DNA of 64,000 nt from Ectothiorhodospiraceae bacterium (lineage in GTDB: Bacteria > Pseudomonadota > Gammaproteobacteria > Nitrococcales > Aquisalimonadaceae), in NCBI GenBank assembly GCA_007125985.1, contig SLCE01000005.1, forward strand, positions 1 to 64,000, written 5' to 3'. Of this stretch, positions 2,344 through 12,947 are shown in pieces. Within the stretch, counting starts at the first letter, position 1, and each line of letters starts with the position of its first letter. The notes beneath the pieces are model-generated. The model was not told the DNA's origin, did no database searches, and saw only the letters and a program-made list of their open reading frames with translations. The translations under genes and the position numbers were made by a program.

Positions 2344-5300
2344 TTAGTACTCGATGCGCACCGCGTCCTGCCCGGACAACGCGCCCAGGCGACGGATCAG
2401 TTCGTCCGTGGGGCGGACCCGCCAGGCGTCGCCGAGGCGCAACACGGCGCGCGCACTCTCGCCCTGGTATTCCATCCACACCGGACAGCGGCCGTCACGG
2501 AACGTGGATAAGGTCTGCTTCAAATGGTCCATGGCGCCGTTGCCGAGCCGGCCATGGTCCAGCGACACCACCAGGCGGCGCGCATAGGCTTCCCGGACTT
2601 CACCGATATCCAGCACCTTGTCGGCGTTGATGCGCCAGCCATCGGAGAAGTCGTCATACCCCAGAGAGCCCTCCACCACCACGAGCTGATCCTGATTGAC
2701 CAGATGGCCGAAACGCTTGTAGGCCTCGGTGAACAGGGTGACCTCGATACGCCCGGTGCGGTCATCCAGCACCAGAAAGGCAATGCGCCCCCCGGACTGG
2801 GTGTTGCGGGTGCGCATGGCCATGACCAGGCCCGCGACAACGACCCGCCGATCCTTCTGCCGCCCGCCAAAGCCTTCACCTCCGGACGGGCCACCGGTGA
2901 TCAGCGTGTTGATGCGGCCGGTCACCACCCGTGACAGTTCGTCCTCGTACCGGGCAATGGGGTGGCCGGTGAGGAACAGCCCGAGGGTCTCCTTTTCCGC
3001 CTGCAGGCGCTCTTCATCATCCCATTCCGGCAGCACTGGATCCGACGCGCCATCTTCCGCGTCATCCCGGGAAGCCCCCATGGTCAGCCCGAACATATCG
3101 TCCTGCCCCATGGCCGCGTTGCGGGAATGCTGCTCCGCCGCCTTCACGGCGAGAGGAATCTGGCTCATCAGGGTGGCGCGGTTGGCGCCCAGGCTGTCCA
3201 GGCAACCGGCGCGAACCAGCGCCTCCAGTGTCCGCCGGTTCACCTTTCGCAGATCCACCCGGCGGCACAGGTCGTAGATATCCCGGTACGCTCCGTTGGA
3301 TTCCCTCTCCTCCACCAGAGCTTCGATGGCGCCCTGCCCCACGCCTTTGACCGCACCGATGCCGTAGATGATGGTGGTTTCGTCCGCCGCGCGGAACTTG
3401 TAGCCGGAGCGGTTGATGTCCGGCGGCACCACGCGGAGCTTCATATCCCGGCATTCCTCGATCAGGGTCACCACCTTGTCGGTGTGATCCATGTCCGAGG
3501 ACAGCACGGCCGCCATGAACGGAGCCGGATAATGGGCCTTGAGCCAGGCGGTTTGGTAGGAAAGCAGCGCGTAGGCGGCGGAATGGGATTTGTTGAAGCC
3601 GTATCCGGCAAACTTCTCCATCAGGTCGAAGATGCCGGTGGCGTGCTCCTCACTGAGCCCATGGGTAGTGGCACCCTGGAGGAAGATCTCCCGCTGCTTG
3701 GCCATCTCCTCAGGCTTCTTCTTCCCCATGGCCCGCCGCAGCAGGTCGGCGCCACCCAGGGAATAACCGGCCAACACCTGGGCGATACGCTGTACCTGTT
3801 CCTGATACAGGATCACGCCATAGGTGGGCTTCAGCACCGGCTCCAGGTCCGCGTGGTGGAGTTCCGGAGTGGGGTACGCCACCTTGGCATGGCCGTGTTT
3901 ACGGGCGATGAAGTCATCCACCATGCCGGATTGCAGCGGGCCCGGCCGGAACAGGGCCACCAGCGCGATGATGTCCTCGAAGCTGTCAGGCTGCAGGCGC
4001 TTGATCAGGTCCTTCATCCCGCGGGATTCCAGCTGGAACACCGCCGTGGTGGCGCAGCGCTTGAGCAGATCGAACGTGGACCGGTCATCCAGCGCGATGG
4101 CATTGATGTCCAGCGGATCATCGCCCTGCTCGGCGCGGATGGCGTTCACCGCCTTCACGGTCCAGTCGATGATGGTCAGTGTGCGCAGGCCCAGGAAGTC
4201 GAACTTCACCAGGCCCACCGCTTCCACATCGTCCTTGTCGTACTGCGTGGCCAGCGAGGCACCACCCGGTTCGCAGTACAGCGGTGAGAAATCGGTGAGC
4301 TCCGAGGGTGCGATCACCACGCCGCCGGCATGCTTGCCCACATTGCGGGCAACGCCTTCCAGCTTCATGGCCAGATCCAGCAGCGGACCCACTTCCTCGT
4401 CGTTCTCATACTGGTCACGCAGATCCGGCTCCTGCTCCAGGGCCTTCTCCAGCGTCATGCCGATCTCGAACGGGATCAGCTTGGCAATACGATCCACCAT
4501 GCCGTAGGGATGACCAAGCACGCGGCCTACATCCCGCACCACGGCCCGGGCTGCCATCGTGCCGTGGGTCGCGATCTGCGAGACCTTCTCACGGCCGTAC
4601 TTGCGGGCCACATAATCGATAACCCGGTCACGCCCTTCCATGCAGAAATCCACATCGAAATCGGGCATGGAGACCCGTTCCGGATTAAGAAAACGCTCGA
4701 ACAAAAGGTCGTAACGCAATGGATCCAGGTCAGTTATCTTGAGAGAGTAGGCGACCAGCGAGCCGGCGCCCGACCCCCGCCCCGGCCCCACGGGAATGTC
4801 GTTGTCCTTCGCCCACTGGATGAAATCGGCGACGATCAGGAAGTATCCGGGAAAGCCCATCTGGATGATCACATCCAGTTCGCGCTGCAGGCGCTCCTCG
4901 TAAACCTTCCGCCGCTCCGGGTAATCCGGCGCAGCGTTGTCCAGCAGTGCCTCCAGCCTTTCCTCCAGGCCGCGCCAGGATTCCTGCTCCAGGAACTGCT
5001 CGATGGTCAGTCCTTCCGGAATGGGGAAATCCGGAAGGAAGTTCTCGCCCAGGGTGATATCCAGATTGCAGCGTCGGGCAATGGCCACCGTGTTGTCGAT
5101 GGCCTCGGGAATGTCCGAGAACAGCTCCGCCATCTCTTCGGGCGTGCGCAGATACTGCTGCTCGGAATAGTTTCGCGGACGCCGCGGGTCATCCAGGGTA
5201 CGCCCCTGGTTGATGCATACGCGTGCCTCATGGGCGTCAAAATCATCCGCCTTGATAAAGCGTACGGCATTGGTGGCCACCACCGGCACGTCGGTCGTGG

Positions 5301-6031: not shown

Positions 6032-6805
6032 ATGATTCACGCAAGCGCAAGCATCGATCCCAATGCCCGGCTGGGGGAAGGCGTCCACGTGGGCGCATTC
6101 GTCTACATCGGGCCGGATGTGGAGATCGGCGACGGCACCGTCATCGGCCCCCACGCGGTCATTGAGGGGCCGACGCGGCTGGGCCGTGACAACCGCATCG
6201 GGCCGCATGCGGTGCTGGGGCAACCCCCCCAGGACACCAGCTACGCGGGTGAGCCCACGCGGCTGGAGATCGGCAATCGTAACGATATCCGCGAATTCGT
6301 CACCATCCACCGGGCCAGCACCAAGGAAGACCAGGTGACCCGCGTGGGCAGCGACAACATGTTCATGGCCTACAGCCATATCGGGCACGACTGCATTGTG
6401 GGCGACCATGTGACCATGGCAAACGGTGCCACCCTGGCTGGTCATGTGACCGTCGAAGATCACGTGATCATCGCCGGTCTTTGCGCAATCCACCAGTTCG
6501 CGCGCATCGGCATGTTCGCCATGTTGGGCGGCGGCACCATGGCACCGAAAGACATTCCGCCCTACGCCATGGCCTCGGGGAATCACGCGAAGCTGTACGG
6601 TCTCAATCGACGGGGCCTGCAGCGCAACGGCTTCAGCGGCGAGGAGATCCGTCAGGTGCGGCAGGCCTACCGTATTCTGTTCCAGTCAGCCTTGCGTCTT
6701 GAGCAGGCGCTCGAGCGCATTGAAGACGACACCAGCCTGGACAGCGCGCGCGTTGCTCATCTGGTGCGGTTTATACGAGACAGCAAACGGGGAGTCACCC
6801 GATGA
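6032..6805 (+). CDS. LpxA-family acyl-ACP--UDP-(amino)sugar O/N-acyltransferase, second paralog in the window
   Basis: 257 aa left-handed beta-helix hexapeptide repeats followed by an LpxA C-terminal helical domain (GLNRRGLQRNGFSGEEIRQVRQAYRILF); SHIGHDC catalytic His region conserved; stop overlaps the next gene by 4 bp. Confidence 0.9.
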   Translation: MIHASASIDPNARLGEGVHVGAFVYIGPDVEIGDGTVIGPHAVIEGPTRLGRDNRIGPHAVLGQPPQDTSYAGEPTRLEIGNRNDIREFVTIHRASTKEDQVTRVGSDNMFMAYSHIGHDCIVGDHVTMANGATLAGHVTVEDHVIIAGLCAIHQFARIGMFAMLGGGTMAPKDIPPYAMASGNHAKLYGLNRRGLQRNGFSGEEIRQVRQAYRILFQSALRLEQALERIEDDTSLDSARVAHLVRFIRDSKRGVTR

Positions 6806-7773
6806 AGCCCTTGCGTGCCGCTGTGATTGGTACCGGCTATCTGGGCCGGTTTCATGCGCAGAAATATGCTGCGTTACCTGAGGCGGAGTTGGTGGCGGTG
6901 GTCGACAGCAACCCCGAACGGGCAAAGGCGGTGGCTGAGGAAGTGGGTTGCCGGGCGCTTACCGATTATCGTGAACTGGCCGGTCAGGTGGATGTGGCGA
7001 GTATCGTGGTGCCCACCCAATTGCATCACCAGGTGGCAACGGATTTGCTGCTGCAGAACACCCATGTACTGGTGGAAAAACCCATCACGGTGACGCTGGA
7101 CGAAGCGGACTCCCTGGTCCGGCTGGCCGCGGAGCGCGACCTGCGTTTGCAGGTAGGGCATCTGGAGCGCTTCAACCCCGCGGTTCAGGCCATGGTGGAT
7201 ATGGTGGTCACCCCCATGTTCATCGAATCCCACAGGCTGGCACCCTACAATCCGCGCGGCGCGGATGTGAGCGTGGTGCTGGACCTGATGATTCACGATA
7301 TCGACATTATCCTGAATCTGGTGGGTCAGCCCCTGACCCGCATCGACGCCAATGGCGTGGCGGTGATCTCCAACGATATCGATATCGCCAATGCCCGGTT
7401 GCAGTTCGGGAACGGTTGCGTGGCCAACGTGACCGCCAGCCGCGTCAGCCAGAAGAGCGAGCGCAAGATGCGCCTGTTCCAGCCCAGCGGTTACATTGCG
7501 CTGGATTTCCAGAGCCGCAGCCTGGACATCCGCCGCACAGGTTCCGGCGAACAGGCGCCCGGTATTCCGGAAATTATCAGTGAGCAGCGCGAGTTCGAGG
7601 GTGGGGACGCGATTCTTAGTGAGATCCGGGCCTTTCTGCGTAGCGTGCATACCGGCAGCCGACCGATCGTGAGCGGCGAGGACGGGCGGCAGGCGCTTGC
7701 TACTGCCATCGAGATCACGCGCCAGCTGAAGGCCAATCCATTACCCGGTCAACCGGTGAACAACCCGGCCTGA
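6802..7773 (+). CDS. Gfo/Idh/MocA-family NAD-dependent oxidoreductase, GnnA-like (UDP-GlcNAc 3-dehydrogenase candidate)
   Basis: 323 aa, AAVIGTGYLGRFHAQKYA Rossmann motif, VEKPIT, HLERFNPA, MIHDIDIIL; ATGA overlap with the upstream lpxA paralog. Confidence 0.85.
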   Translation: MKPLRAAVIGTGYLGRFHAQKYAALPEAELVAVVDSNPERAKAVAEEVGCRALTDYRELAGQVDVASIVVPTQLHHQVATDLLLQNTHVLVEKPITVTLDEADSLVRLAAERDLRLQVGHLERFNPAVQAMVDMVVTPMFIESHRLAPYNPRGADVSVVLDLMIHDIDIILNLVGQPLTRIDANGVAVISNDIDIANARLQFGNGCVANVTASRVSQKSERKMRLFQPSGYIALDFQSRSLDIRRTGSGEQAPGIPEIISEQREFEGGDAILSEIRAFLRSVHTGSRPIVSGEDGRQALATAIEITRQLKANPLPGQPVNNPA

Positions 7774-7787
7774 CCCACGGAGGACGT

Positions 7788-8891
7788 TTGATGATTCCCA
7801 TGGTGGACCTAAAGGCCCAGTACGCCGACATCCGCTCGGAGATTGAGAGCGGATTCAGCGAGGTGCTGGATTCCGCCCAGTTCATCCTCGGGCCGAACGT
7901 GCAAGCCCTGGAAGCGGAAATCGCGGAGTACCTCTGCGTGCCGCATGCCGTTTCCTGCGCTTCGGGCACCGATGCCCTGCATCTGGCGCTGGCCGCAGCG
8001 GGCATCGGGCCGGGCGACGAGGTGATCACCACGGCGTTCACGTTCATCGCCACCGCCGAGGCGATCCGCTATGTGGGTGCCACCCCGGTTTTCGTGGACA
8101 TTGAGGCGCACAGCTTCAACATGGATCTCGCCCAGATCGAGGCCGCGATCACGGAACGGACGCGCGCCATTATGCCGGTGCACCTGTTCGGGCAGCCGGT
8201 GGACATGCGCGAGCTGCAACGCATCGCCAGCAAACATCAATTGCTGCTGATTGAGGACTGCGCCCAGTCGTTCGGCGCGCATCGGGATGGCTTGATGACC
8301 GGCGGCTTCGGCCTGGCCGGCTGTTTCAGCTTCTTTCCCAGCAAGAATCTCGGTGGCTATGGAGACGGTGGCCTGGTGGTCACCGGATCCGAGGGCATGG
8401 CCGAGGAGCTGCGCGTGCTGCGCAACCACGGCAGCCGCGAGCGCTACCACCATCATGTGATCGGCTACAACAGTCGCCTGGATGAGATTCAGGCGATGAT
8501 CCTGCGGGCCAAGCTCAAGCGCATTTCCGGCTACAACGAGCGGCGCCGGCATGTGGCCTGGGCGTACAATGCGCGCCTCAAAGACCTGCCCGGTCTGCGC
8601 ACCCCCTGGGAAGACAGCGAGGGTTACCATGTCTACCACCAGTACACGGTGCTGGTGGACAAGCGCGATCAGGTGATGGCCAGCCTACGGGATTCCGGGG
8701 TGGCAAGCGCCATCTATTATCCGGTGCCGCTACACCGTCAGGACGTGTTCCGCGACCAGTACGCCGCCGTGGAGCTTCCGGTAACGGAGCAGGTCGCTGC
8801 CCAGTGCCTCTCCCTGCCCATGTTCCCCGAACTTTCGGATGACCAGATCCGCCAGGTGACCGATGCGGTGATTCAGGCGGTGAGCACCTGA
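7788..8891 (+). CDS. DegT/DnrJ/EryC1/StrS-family PLP aminotransferase, GnnB-like
   Basis: 367 aa, MIPMVDLKAQYADI..., SGTDALHLAL, GDEVITTAFTFIATAEAI, EDCAQSFGA, FSFFPSKNLGGYGDGG (PLP-lysine motif). Confidence 0.88.
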   Translation: MMIPMVDLKAQYADIRSEIESGFSEVLDSAQFILGPNVQALEAEIAEYLCVPHAVSCASGTDALHLALAAAGIGPGDEVITTAFTFIATAEAIRYVGATPVFVDIEAHSFNMDLAQIEAAITERTRAIMPVHLFGQPVDMRELQRIASKHQLLLIEDCAQSFGAHRDGLMTGGFGLAGCFSFFPSKNLGGYGDGGLVVTGSEGMAEELRVLRNHGSRERYHHHVIGYNSRLDEIQAMILRAKLKRISGYNERRRHVAWAYNARLKDLPGLRTPWEDSEGYHVYHQYTVLVDKRDQVMASLRDSGVASAIYYPVPLHRQDVFRDQYAAVELPVTEQVAAQCLSLPMFPELSDDQIRQVTDAVIQAVST

Positions 8892-10956: not shown

Positions 10957-11727
10957 TTAACGGACAATGCCGCGGCCCTCTTCGGCCAGGAATTCCACCA
11001 ATGGCAACAACTCGACATGTTCGCCCGCCATGGGCCGCAGTGCTTCCAGGGCCTGCTCCAGACGCAGACCCTGCTTGTAGAGCACGCGATAGGCGCGACG
11101 TACAGCCTGCACGGCCTCCCGGCTGTACCCCCGACGCCGCAACCCTTCGCTGTTCACGCCGTGAGGCTCTGCGGGATTGCCTGCCACAGTGACAAATGGA
11201 GGCACATCCTGCTTCACCGCGCTGCCCATGGACGAAAAGCTGTGCGCGCCGACGCGGCAGAACTGATGCACCAGCGTGAACCCGCCGAGAATCACGTCAT
11301 CCGCAACACGCACATGCCCGGCGAGGGATGCACCGTTGGCGAACACCGTCCGGCACCCCACCTGACAGTCATGGGCGATATGGACGTAGGCCATGATCCA
11401 GTTGTCGTCACCAATGCGCGTCACGCCATTGTCCTGCACAGTGCCGCGATTGATGGTGACAAACTCCCGGAACGTATTCCGTTCGCCGATCTCCAGCAAG
11501 GTCTCCTCCCCTGCATACTTCTTGTCCTGCGGGTCGGCGCCGATGGACGCGTACTGGTAAACGCGATTACCCGCTGCCATCCGGGTAGGCCCTTCGATGG
11601 TCACATGGGGCCCGATTACGCAATCATCGCCGATGTGCACATCCGGCCCGATTACGCTGAAAGCCCCGATATGGACGTTGCGCCCGATGCGGGCGCTTGG
11701 GTCAATGACTGCTGTCTCGTGTATCAA
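10957..11727 (-). CDS. lpxA: acyl-ACP--UDP-N-acetylglucosamine O-acyltransferase (canonical-position copy)
   Basis: [30 protein letters not shown]..., [52 protein letters not shown] start at 11727 overlaps the fabZ stop. The 284-aa ORF is over-extended. Confidence 0.94.
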
Positions 11728-12164
11728 GAGGATAGATCCCGCATCGTACACATGATCTCGGCCTCGGCAACGGCCTGGCCATCCACCGTGGCAAGCCCCT
11801 CGAACACCCAAATTCCGCGCTTACGGCGCAGGATGCGGACTTCCAGCCGTACCTGATCACCCGGTTCCACAGGACGCTTGAAACGGGCCTTGTCGAAACC
11901 CACCAGGTAAAAAATCAGATTACCCTCAGGCGCCTGCCCTTCCGTTTCGAATGCCAACAGGCCGCCCGCCTGAGCCATGGCCTCCAGCAGCAGCACGCCC
12001 GGCATCACAGGGCGCTGCGGGAAGTGACCCTGAAAAAAGGGCTCGTTGGCGGTGACATTCTTTATGGCGACGATCGAGTCGCCGGAATTCAATTCCAACA
12101 CACGGTCCACCAGCAGGAACGGATACCGGTGGGGAAGCTGTGTTCTGATGCCGTGTATATCCAT
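11724..12164 (-). CDS. fabZ: 3-hydroxyacyl-[acyl-carrier-protein] dehydratase FabZ
   Basis: [26 protein letters not shown]...[20 protein letters not shown]; start trimmed from the 187-aa ORF. Confidence 0.95.
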
Positions 12165-12274
12165 GCTCGGTCTGATTCTCCCGTACGCGGTCCGGTACGG
12201 GCTGGATATAACCGGCCCCCGTCCGCCGCTGCGTCGCACCCTTACTGGCGCGACCTGTTCGCTGAAAACCGAAA

Positions 12275-12315
12275 CGGGCCGGGACATGACGCTTACACGT
12301 CATCTCCACGGCCCG
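12275..12315. other. Two-stem intergenic hairpin between skp and fabZ
   Basis: CGGGCCG-ggac-ATGACG-cttaca-CGTCAT-ctcca-CGGCCCG: outer 7-bp and inner 6-bp perfect stems. Confidence 0.7.
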
Positions 12316-12345
12316 ACTGGGCTACCGAAGCAGCCGACTGGATGT

Positions 12346-12873
12346 TCAGTCGCCGGTTTCGAAGTCCTGGCGCATCCATTCCAGCACCAGGTCAGTGATA
12401 TCTACCTGGTCACTGGCGTAAACCACGCCATCGCTGACGACGAGGTCATAATCACGCTGTTCCGCAACCGCACTGATGGTGTCAAAAATCTGCCGCTGCA
12501 GGCGGCCGAGTTCTTCGTTCCGGCGCATGTTGAAATCTTCCCGGAACTCGTCCTGTGCCCGACGCAGTTCCCGTTTGCGGGAGACCACATCGCGTTGCAG
12601 ACGCCGCTGCTCTTCCTCACTCATCACGGCGCCGTCGCGGTTGAGCCGTTCTTCCAAGTCGCGGATATCCGACTGTTCCGCGGCCATTTCGCGGTCGCGG
12701 GGAGCGAACTCCTCCTCCAGCTTTGCGCGGGCCGCTTCTGCCTGCGGCGCCTCCGCCGAAACCCGACCGAGATTGACGAACCCGATCCGTGTCTCCGCCT
12801 GCGCCGATCCGGCCACCAATAGAGCCGTAACCAGCAGTGCGGTCATTCCCATCCTGATGAGCGCTTTCGTCAC
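12346..12873 (-). CDS. skp: periplasmic chaperone Skp/OmpH family
   Basis: Signal peptide (MTALLVTALLVAGSAQA) then ETRIGFVNLGRVSAEAPQAEAARAKLEEEFAPRDREM...; between bamA and fabZ; GTG start inferred. Confidence 0.88.
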   Translation of the reverse strand: MTKALIRMGMTALLVTALLVAGSAQAETRIGFVNLGRVSAEAPQAEAARAKLEEEFAPRDREMAAEQSDIRDLEERLNRDGAVMSEEEQRRLQRDVVSRKRELRRAQDEFREDFNMRRNEELGRLQRQIFDTISAVAEQRDYDLVVSDGVVYASDQVDITDLVLEWMRQDFETGD

Positions 12874-12947
12874 GTCTCCACTCTGCCGTCTGCCCCGCGT
12901 CGGACGCGGCCCGGGCCGGCGTACCTGCAAGCCCTGGCCGGGATCCT

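Follow-up and report, generated by a model that had tools for sequence, protein, structure and literature searches.

In most genomes of this order, including others of the same family, a locus comparison places lpxD between skp and fabZ, the order that the first-pass annotation had taken as usual. The locus described here raises the question of what has become of lpxD in Ectothiorhodospiraceae bacterium (G000), where skp and fabZ lie side by side. The window, i.e., the whole stretch of DNA analysed, comprises 64,000 nucleotides (contig SLCE01000005.1, positions 1 to 64,000). Within it, skp, the open reading frame for a periplasmic chaperone (12346..12930, minus strand), lies upstream of the missing gene and ends with a TGA at 12348-12346, and fabZ, the gene downstream (11724..12164, minus strand; TIGR01750 above cut-off), begins with an ATG at 12164, so that the junction corresponding to the lpxD site of relatives (12165..12345) measures 181 bp. 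The Skp model PRK10780 (NCBIfam) gives 85.5 bits for the skp product, under its curated cut-off of 237, and canonical lpxA follows fabZ (10957..11721, minus strand; TIGR01852 above cut-off). The absence of lpxD from this position, which had been noticed in the first pass, is borne out, in that profile, BLAST and six-frame searches of the junction revealed no remnant. A profile built from canonical LpxDs of the family, used with all filters off, found nothing in the junctions of G000 and its congener G002 (best E 0.8); in a positive control for this search, 40-residue pieces of LpxD scored about 1e-11 to 1e-26. DNA homology between G000 and the other congener, G001, ends at the skp stop codon and restarts at the fabZ ATG. 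The junction is equally empty in G002, which excludes an assembly gap, and the clean removal of lpxD from its place between skp and fabZ is confirmed.

The window holds no other LpxD-like open reading frame, as had also been claimed; LpxD-like matches in it are limited to two LpxA hexapeptide proteins. A six-frame search of the whole genome with PF04613, a check proposed along with the first-pass annotation, finds exactly one LpxD, which lies outside the window on contig C242 (4,939 bp; 3228-4463, minus strand). Its N-terminal uridine-binding domain matches PF04613 with E = 9.6e-22 (78.5 bits; cut-off 30.8), the equivalog model TIGR01853 scores 374.8 bits (cut-off 242.5), and the protein matches solved LpxDs over its whole length with E values down to 1e-92. 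The catalytic residues are present as H241, G259 and H278, corresponding to E. coli His239, Gly257 and His276. On C242, lpxD has a gene for an MscS-type channel downstream and a divergent gene upstream, the G002 counterpart of which encodes a sugar transferase. The contig is syntenic with contig C115 of G002 (same gene order, 72-80% identity), and while an mscS homolog occurs in 13 of the 14 genomes of the family, lpxD lies beside it only in these two.

This sole LpxD belongs to a separate, off-operon lineage that we call LpxD-B. It is 72% identical to the LpxD on C115 of G002, 61% identical to a second copy in G001 (contig C123), and equally 61% identical to a second copy in G020, a genome of another family, but shares only 46% identity with the canonical LpxD that G001 still carries between skp and fabZ. 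In a maximum-likelihood tree of 68 rows, the off-operon LpxDs fall into a single clade (98/97), away from the canonical LpxDs of the family; LpxD-B is again one group (98/99) in a reduced tree of 49 rows to which a fragment from G011 was added. The canonical LpxDs of family f3 (f1 to f5 are families of the order) stand nearest to it. A scan of named genomes gave, among the matches listed, almost only canonical LpxDs, which were used as an outgroup only. Genomic position divides the proteins in the same way: LpxD-B adjoins neither skp nor fabZ in any LpxD-B row, and all other rows adjoin one or both. By these comparisons, the LpxD that remains is a xenolog or an ancient paralog, divergent and sited at a different locus. 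As to G001, its second lpxD is that genome's own, since the only rpsA of G001 lies on the same contig, C123, with 94% identity to the G000 gene; contamination was ruled out on this ground.

We consider it most likely that a divergent lpxD at a different place in the genome, spread horizontally, provides the LpxD step in G000. Specifically, we propose, with a probability of roughly 0.8, that the canonical gene was lost in the ancestor of G000 and G002, and that this was tolerable because the genome already held LpxD-B. A second, divergent LpxD would have been gained at another locus, most likely by a horizontal transfer, the direction of which is read, as is the transfer itself, from comparison of sequences. 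Its product would catalyse the reaction of canonical LpxD, in which UDP-3-acyl-glucosamine is N-acylated from acyl-ACP, with an unchanged catalytic base and with a remodelled acyl-donor pocket that probably confers a different or looser acyl preference. A clean deletion would later have removed the ancestral lpxD from the skp-fabZ interval in the ancestor shared by the two species, and G001, in which both genes are present, would represent the intermediate state. Weak points of this proposal are that LpxD-B of G000 lies on a contig of 4.9 kb and that deep nodes within LpxD-B have poor resolution.

The loss is not an arrangement of the whole family, a case that the first-pass annotation had itself raised: canonical lpxD is found in 12 of its 14 genomes (G001 and 11 others), and only two species, both of one genus, have lost it. 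Across the 54 genomes of the order that were searched, several of which are fragmented draft MAGs, the canonical gene is gone from G000, G002, most of family f5, and G042. Taking the families as given, this amounts to at least three separate losses. In the f5 genomes without lpxD, fabZ directly follows bamA (gap of about 100-290 bp), or skp in the case of G022, and two members of this family (G031 and G039) retain lpxD before fabZ. In Halorhodospira-type loci (L251, L253-L256 and L258-L260), skp is also missing from its usual place between bamA and fabZ; in G031 (L261), lpxD follows bamA and there is no space for skp. The canonical gene is likewise gone from Halorhodospira halophila SL1 (G019), where LpxD-B is the sole LpxD, and from its relatives, and G042 has two tandem LpxD-B genes beside znuA (L187:6967-9301), with no canonical lpxD found in that genome. 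Both types occur together in G001 and G020, and probably in G011, where the C-terminal part of an LpxD-B lies at a contig end (L190:4811-5239) and a canonical lpxD is also present. A second skp-lpxD-fabZ-lpxA set with a very divergent LpxD, on a short contig of G010 (C82; L066), is likely contamination.

An old duplication in the order's common ancestor, with LpxD-B inherited vertically as a paralog and either copy lost differentially, would fit the near confinement of LpxD-B to this order, its single origin on the tree and the closeness of the f3 canonical LpxDs. We nevertheless judge this history improbable, as it requires many independent losses of LpxD-B. LpxD-B may depart from the host phylogeny: it stands apart from the LpxD of the host family, and in the LpxD tree, the inner LpxD-B nodes of which are weak, the G011 fragment (f1) groups across families with G022 of f5 (99/91) rather than with LpxD-B of f1. 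The genomic setting also varies between genera, and even inside one genus. The neighbours include mscS and the sugar transferase gene in G000 and G002, adenosine deaminase and a lapB-like gene in G001, an RND efflux operon in G020, znuA in G042 and an HNH endonuclease gene in G029. Because G011 groups with G022 and the neighbours differ between genera, horizontal spread is favoured; no conserved LpxD-B neighbourhood, such as an exopolysaccharide or lipid A island, was found. In addition, at least one carrier of LpxD-B belongs to another order of the class. Among the 369 genomes of a class-wide sample, three of them from this order, G398 (L263) is the one genome outside the order with the full marks of LpxD-B (H236, A290 and V310), and neither skp nor fabZ is adjacent to the gene; the other best matches outside the order (L264 to L290) all adjoin skp and/or fabZ. 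A contig from a Marinimicrobium MAG (L102) likewise encodes an LpxD-B-type protein outside the order, with His at 236 and Ala at 290. These two proteins may reflect either transfer or mis-binning.

The first-pass annotation had left it open whether lpxD was relocated or replaced, and of these, replacement stands. A simple relocation, by which the ancestral gene moved and then diverged at its new place, would leave what is seen in G000, namely one lpxD only, at a new position. An AU test rejects it: forcing the G000 and G002 proteins into the family's canonical clade is 101 log units worse (p = 7.3e-7). Furthermore, G001, of the same genus, holds the canonical gene along with LpxD-B, and the residues typical of LpxD-B are common to the LpxD-B proteins of other families. 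We therefore regard relocation as very improbable and retain replacement by LpxD-B.

The first pass had further tied the loss to an extra lpxA linked to gnn genes. The window does contain a second lpxA (6032..6805, plus strand; TIGR01852 above cut-off), followed by a gnnA-like oxidoreductase gene (6802..7773, plus strand), the best NCBIfam match of which is UDP-GlcNAc 3-dehydrogenase, under cut-off, and by a gnnB-like aminotransferase gene (7788..8891, plus strand), for which matches to PseC-type aminotransferases fall under cut-offs and which is called gnnB by its linkage to gnnA and lpxA. These three genes are family-wide and are shared by several further families, but gnnA is missing from Halorhodospira. 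A switch to diamino-sugar lipid A might have driven the replacement, with LpxD-B specialised for UDP-3-N-acyl-GlcN3N, and both features are indeed present in G000. This link does not survive the comparison, however, as orthologs of gnnA and the second lpxA are found in all 14 genomes of the family, 12 of which have canonical lpxD, and 10 of the 15 informative LpxD-B genomes, including most of those outside the family, lack a gnnA ortholog. With gnnA in 5/15 LpxD-B genomes and 23/36 of those without LpxD-B (Fisher p = 0.07; 51 informative genomes, raw counts of related genomes), the association is, if anything, negative, opposite to the one proposed. The second lpxA is unrelated to the loss of lpxD, and we give co-remodelling of the two systems hardly any credence. 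Least credible of all is an artefact of assembly or binning, in which the assembly dropped canonical lpxD and took in C242 as a contaminant: C242 is short and the genome a draft, but the junction lies inside the contiguous window and is common to G002, C242 matches C115 of that genome in gene order and at 72-80% identity, and composition agrees (GC 61% vs 63%).

Returning to replacement by LpxD-B, we surveyed acyl-donor pocket residues in the 16 full-length LpxD-B proteins of the main set, using E. coli numbering and a mapping checked on the Escherichia row. In E. coli LpxD, H239 acts as the catalytic base and G257 forms the oxyanion site. The donor is bound at its beta-hydroxyl by Q236 and D232 and at its phosphopantetheine by N310 and R314, and the acyl pocket is closed off at its end by M290 (PMC6286764). 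All 16 LpxD-B proteins keep H239, G257 and D232, and 15 keep H276. At the donor side, Q236 is replaced by His and M290 by Gly or Ala in 16/16, and each of the 15 rows covering position 310 has Val, Leu, Ala or Ile in place of N310. Most members also end in an S-P-x-P-A-Q-P motif instead of S-S-G. The family's canonical LpxDs have Q236 in 10 of 11 cases and Gln at 290 in all 11; those of f3 already have Gly at 290 and retain Q236. The donor side of LpxD-B is thus remodelled and its catalytic side kept, and from this combination a different or looser acyl-donor preference is predicted. In the f4 genomes of genus g9, which we take to be the genus of Spiribacter salinus, the LpxD is canonical, mostly with Met at 290. 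The E. coli M290A mutant admits C16 and C18, and the Chlamydia enzyme, which uses a C20 donor, has Gly at this position (PMC6286764). Amide-bound 3-oxo-C14 is reported for H. halophila and likewise for S. salinus (PMC5923411). Since the former has LpxD-B only and the latter the canonical enzyme, a simple rule is unlikely, and a longer chain following from M290 to Gly in LpxD-B is a weak prediction only. A broader possibility, which we think would sooner fail than hold, is that LpxD-B constitutes a mobile LpxD of distinct function, the donor of which has changed (in chain length or 3-position chemistry), and that its spread among halophilic gammaproteobacteria repeatedly rewires the N-acyl chains of lipid A, the operon copy being discarded later.

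LpxD-B resembles the solved LpxDs of E. coli, P. aeruginosa and C. trachomatis in its whole-length homology and, for the G000 protein, in catalytic H239, G257 and H276, and differs from them in lying outside the skp-lpxD-fabZ operon and in the changes Q236 to H, M290 to G/A and N310 to V/L. In gene content, G001 and G020 resemble Francisella, with its two paralogs LpxD1 and LpxD2. F. novicida retains both and uses one or the other according to temperature (C16 at 18 C, C18 at 37 C; PMC4688374), whereas in the present case one of the two is eventually lost and the other would spread between families. The duplications of lpxD in Gloeobacter and of lpxA in Geobacter are similar as lineage-specific extra copies of an early lipid A acyltransferase; the parts of that account considered here describe no displacement of an operon copy (PMC3087551). 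The closest general description is xenologous gene displacement, in which a native gene is lost and a homolog of foreign origin serves in its place, and this is most likely what has befallen lpxD as a core gene. Compared with the general case, the gene is essential and belongs to a very stable operon, the new copy lies at a new locus, and the event is recurrent with an intermediate visible. A divergent homolog, sited at unrelated loci, would have displaced an essential gene on more than one occasion. Because there are species that carry either copy alone and species that carry both, displacement of a core gene can be tested in close relatives, and the coordinated changes at donor-reading residues suggest that lipid A acylation may change along with it. 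Operon position alone is a poor ground for scoring lpxD as absent.

The junction itself encodes a putative RNA hairpin of 16 pairs (12275..12315, minus strand), directly followed by a T-rich tail, TTTCGGTTTTC (12264..12274, minus strand), which is identical in G000 and G002 and absent from G001. Hairpin and tail together have a fold z of -7.4. Compared with G002, there are three compensatory pair changes, a count reached by 51 of 500 shuffles in this comparison of two sequences, and so the changes are no more than suggestive. A terminator scan of the junction called no site, and the hairpin with its TTTCGGTTTTC tail is terminator- or attenuator-like without being a textbook terminator. A repeat element or Rfam family was ruled out, as the exact match occurs once per genome and there is no Rfam match. 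Most likely, the hairpin is a transcript-end or processing structure after skp.
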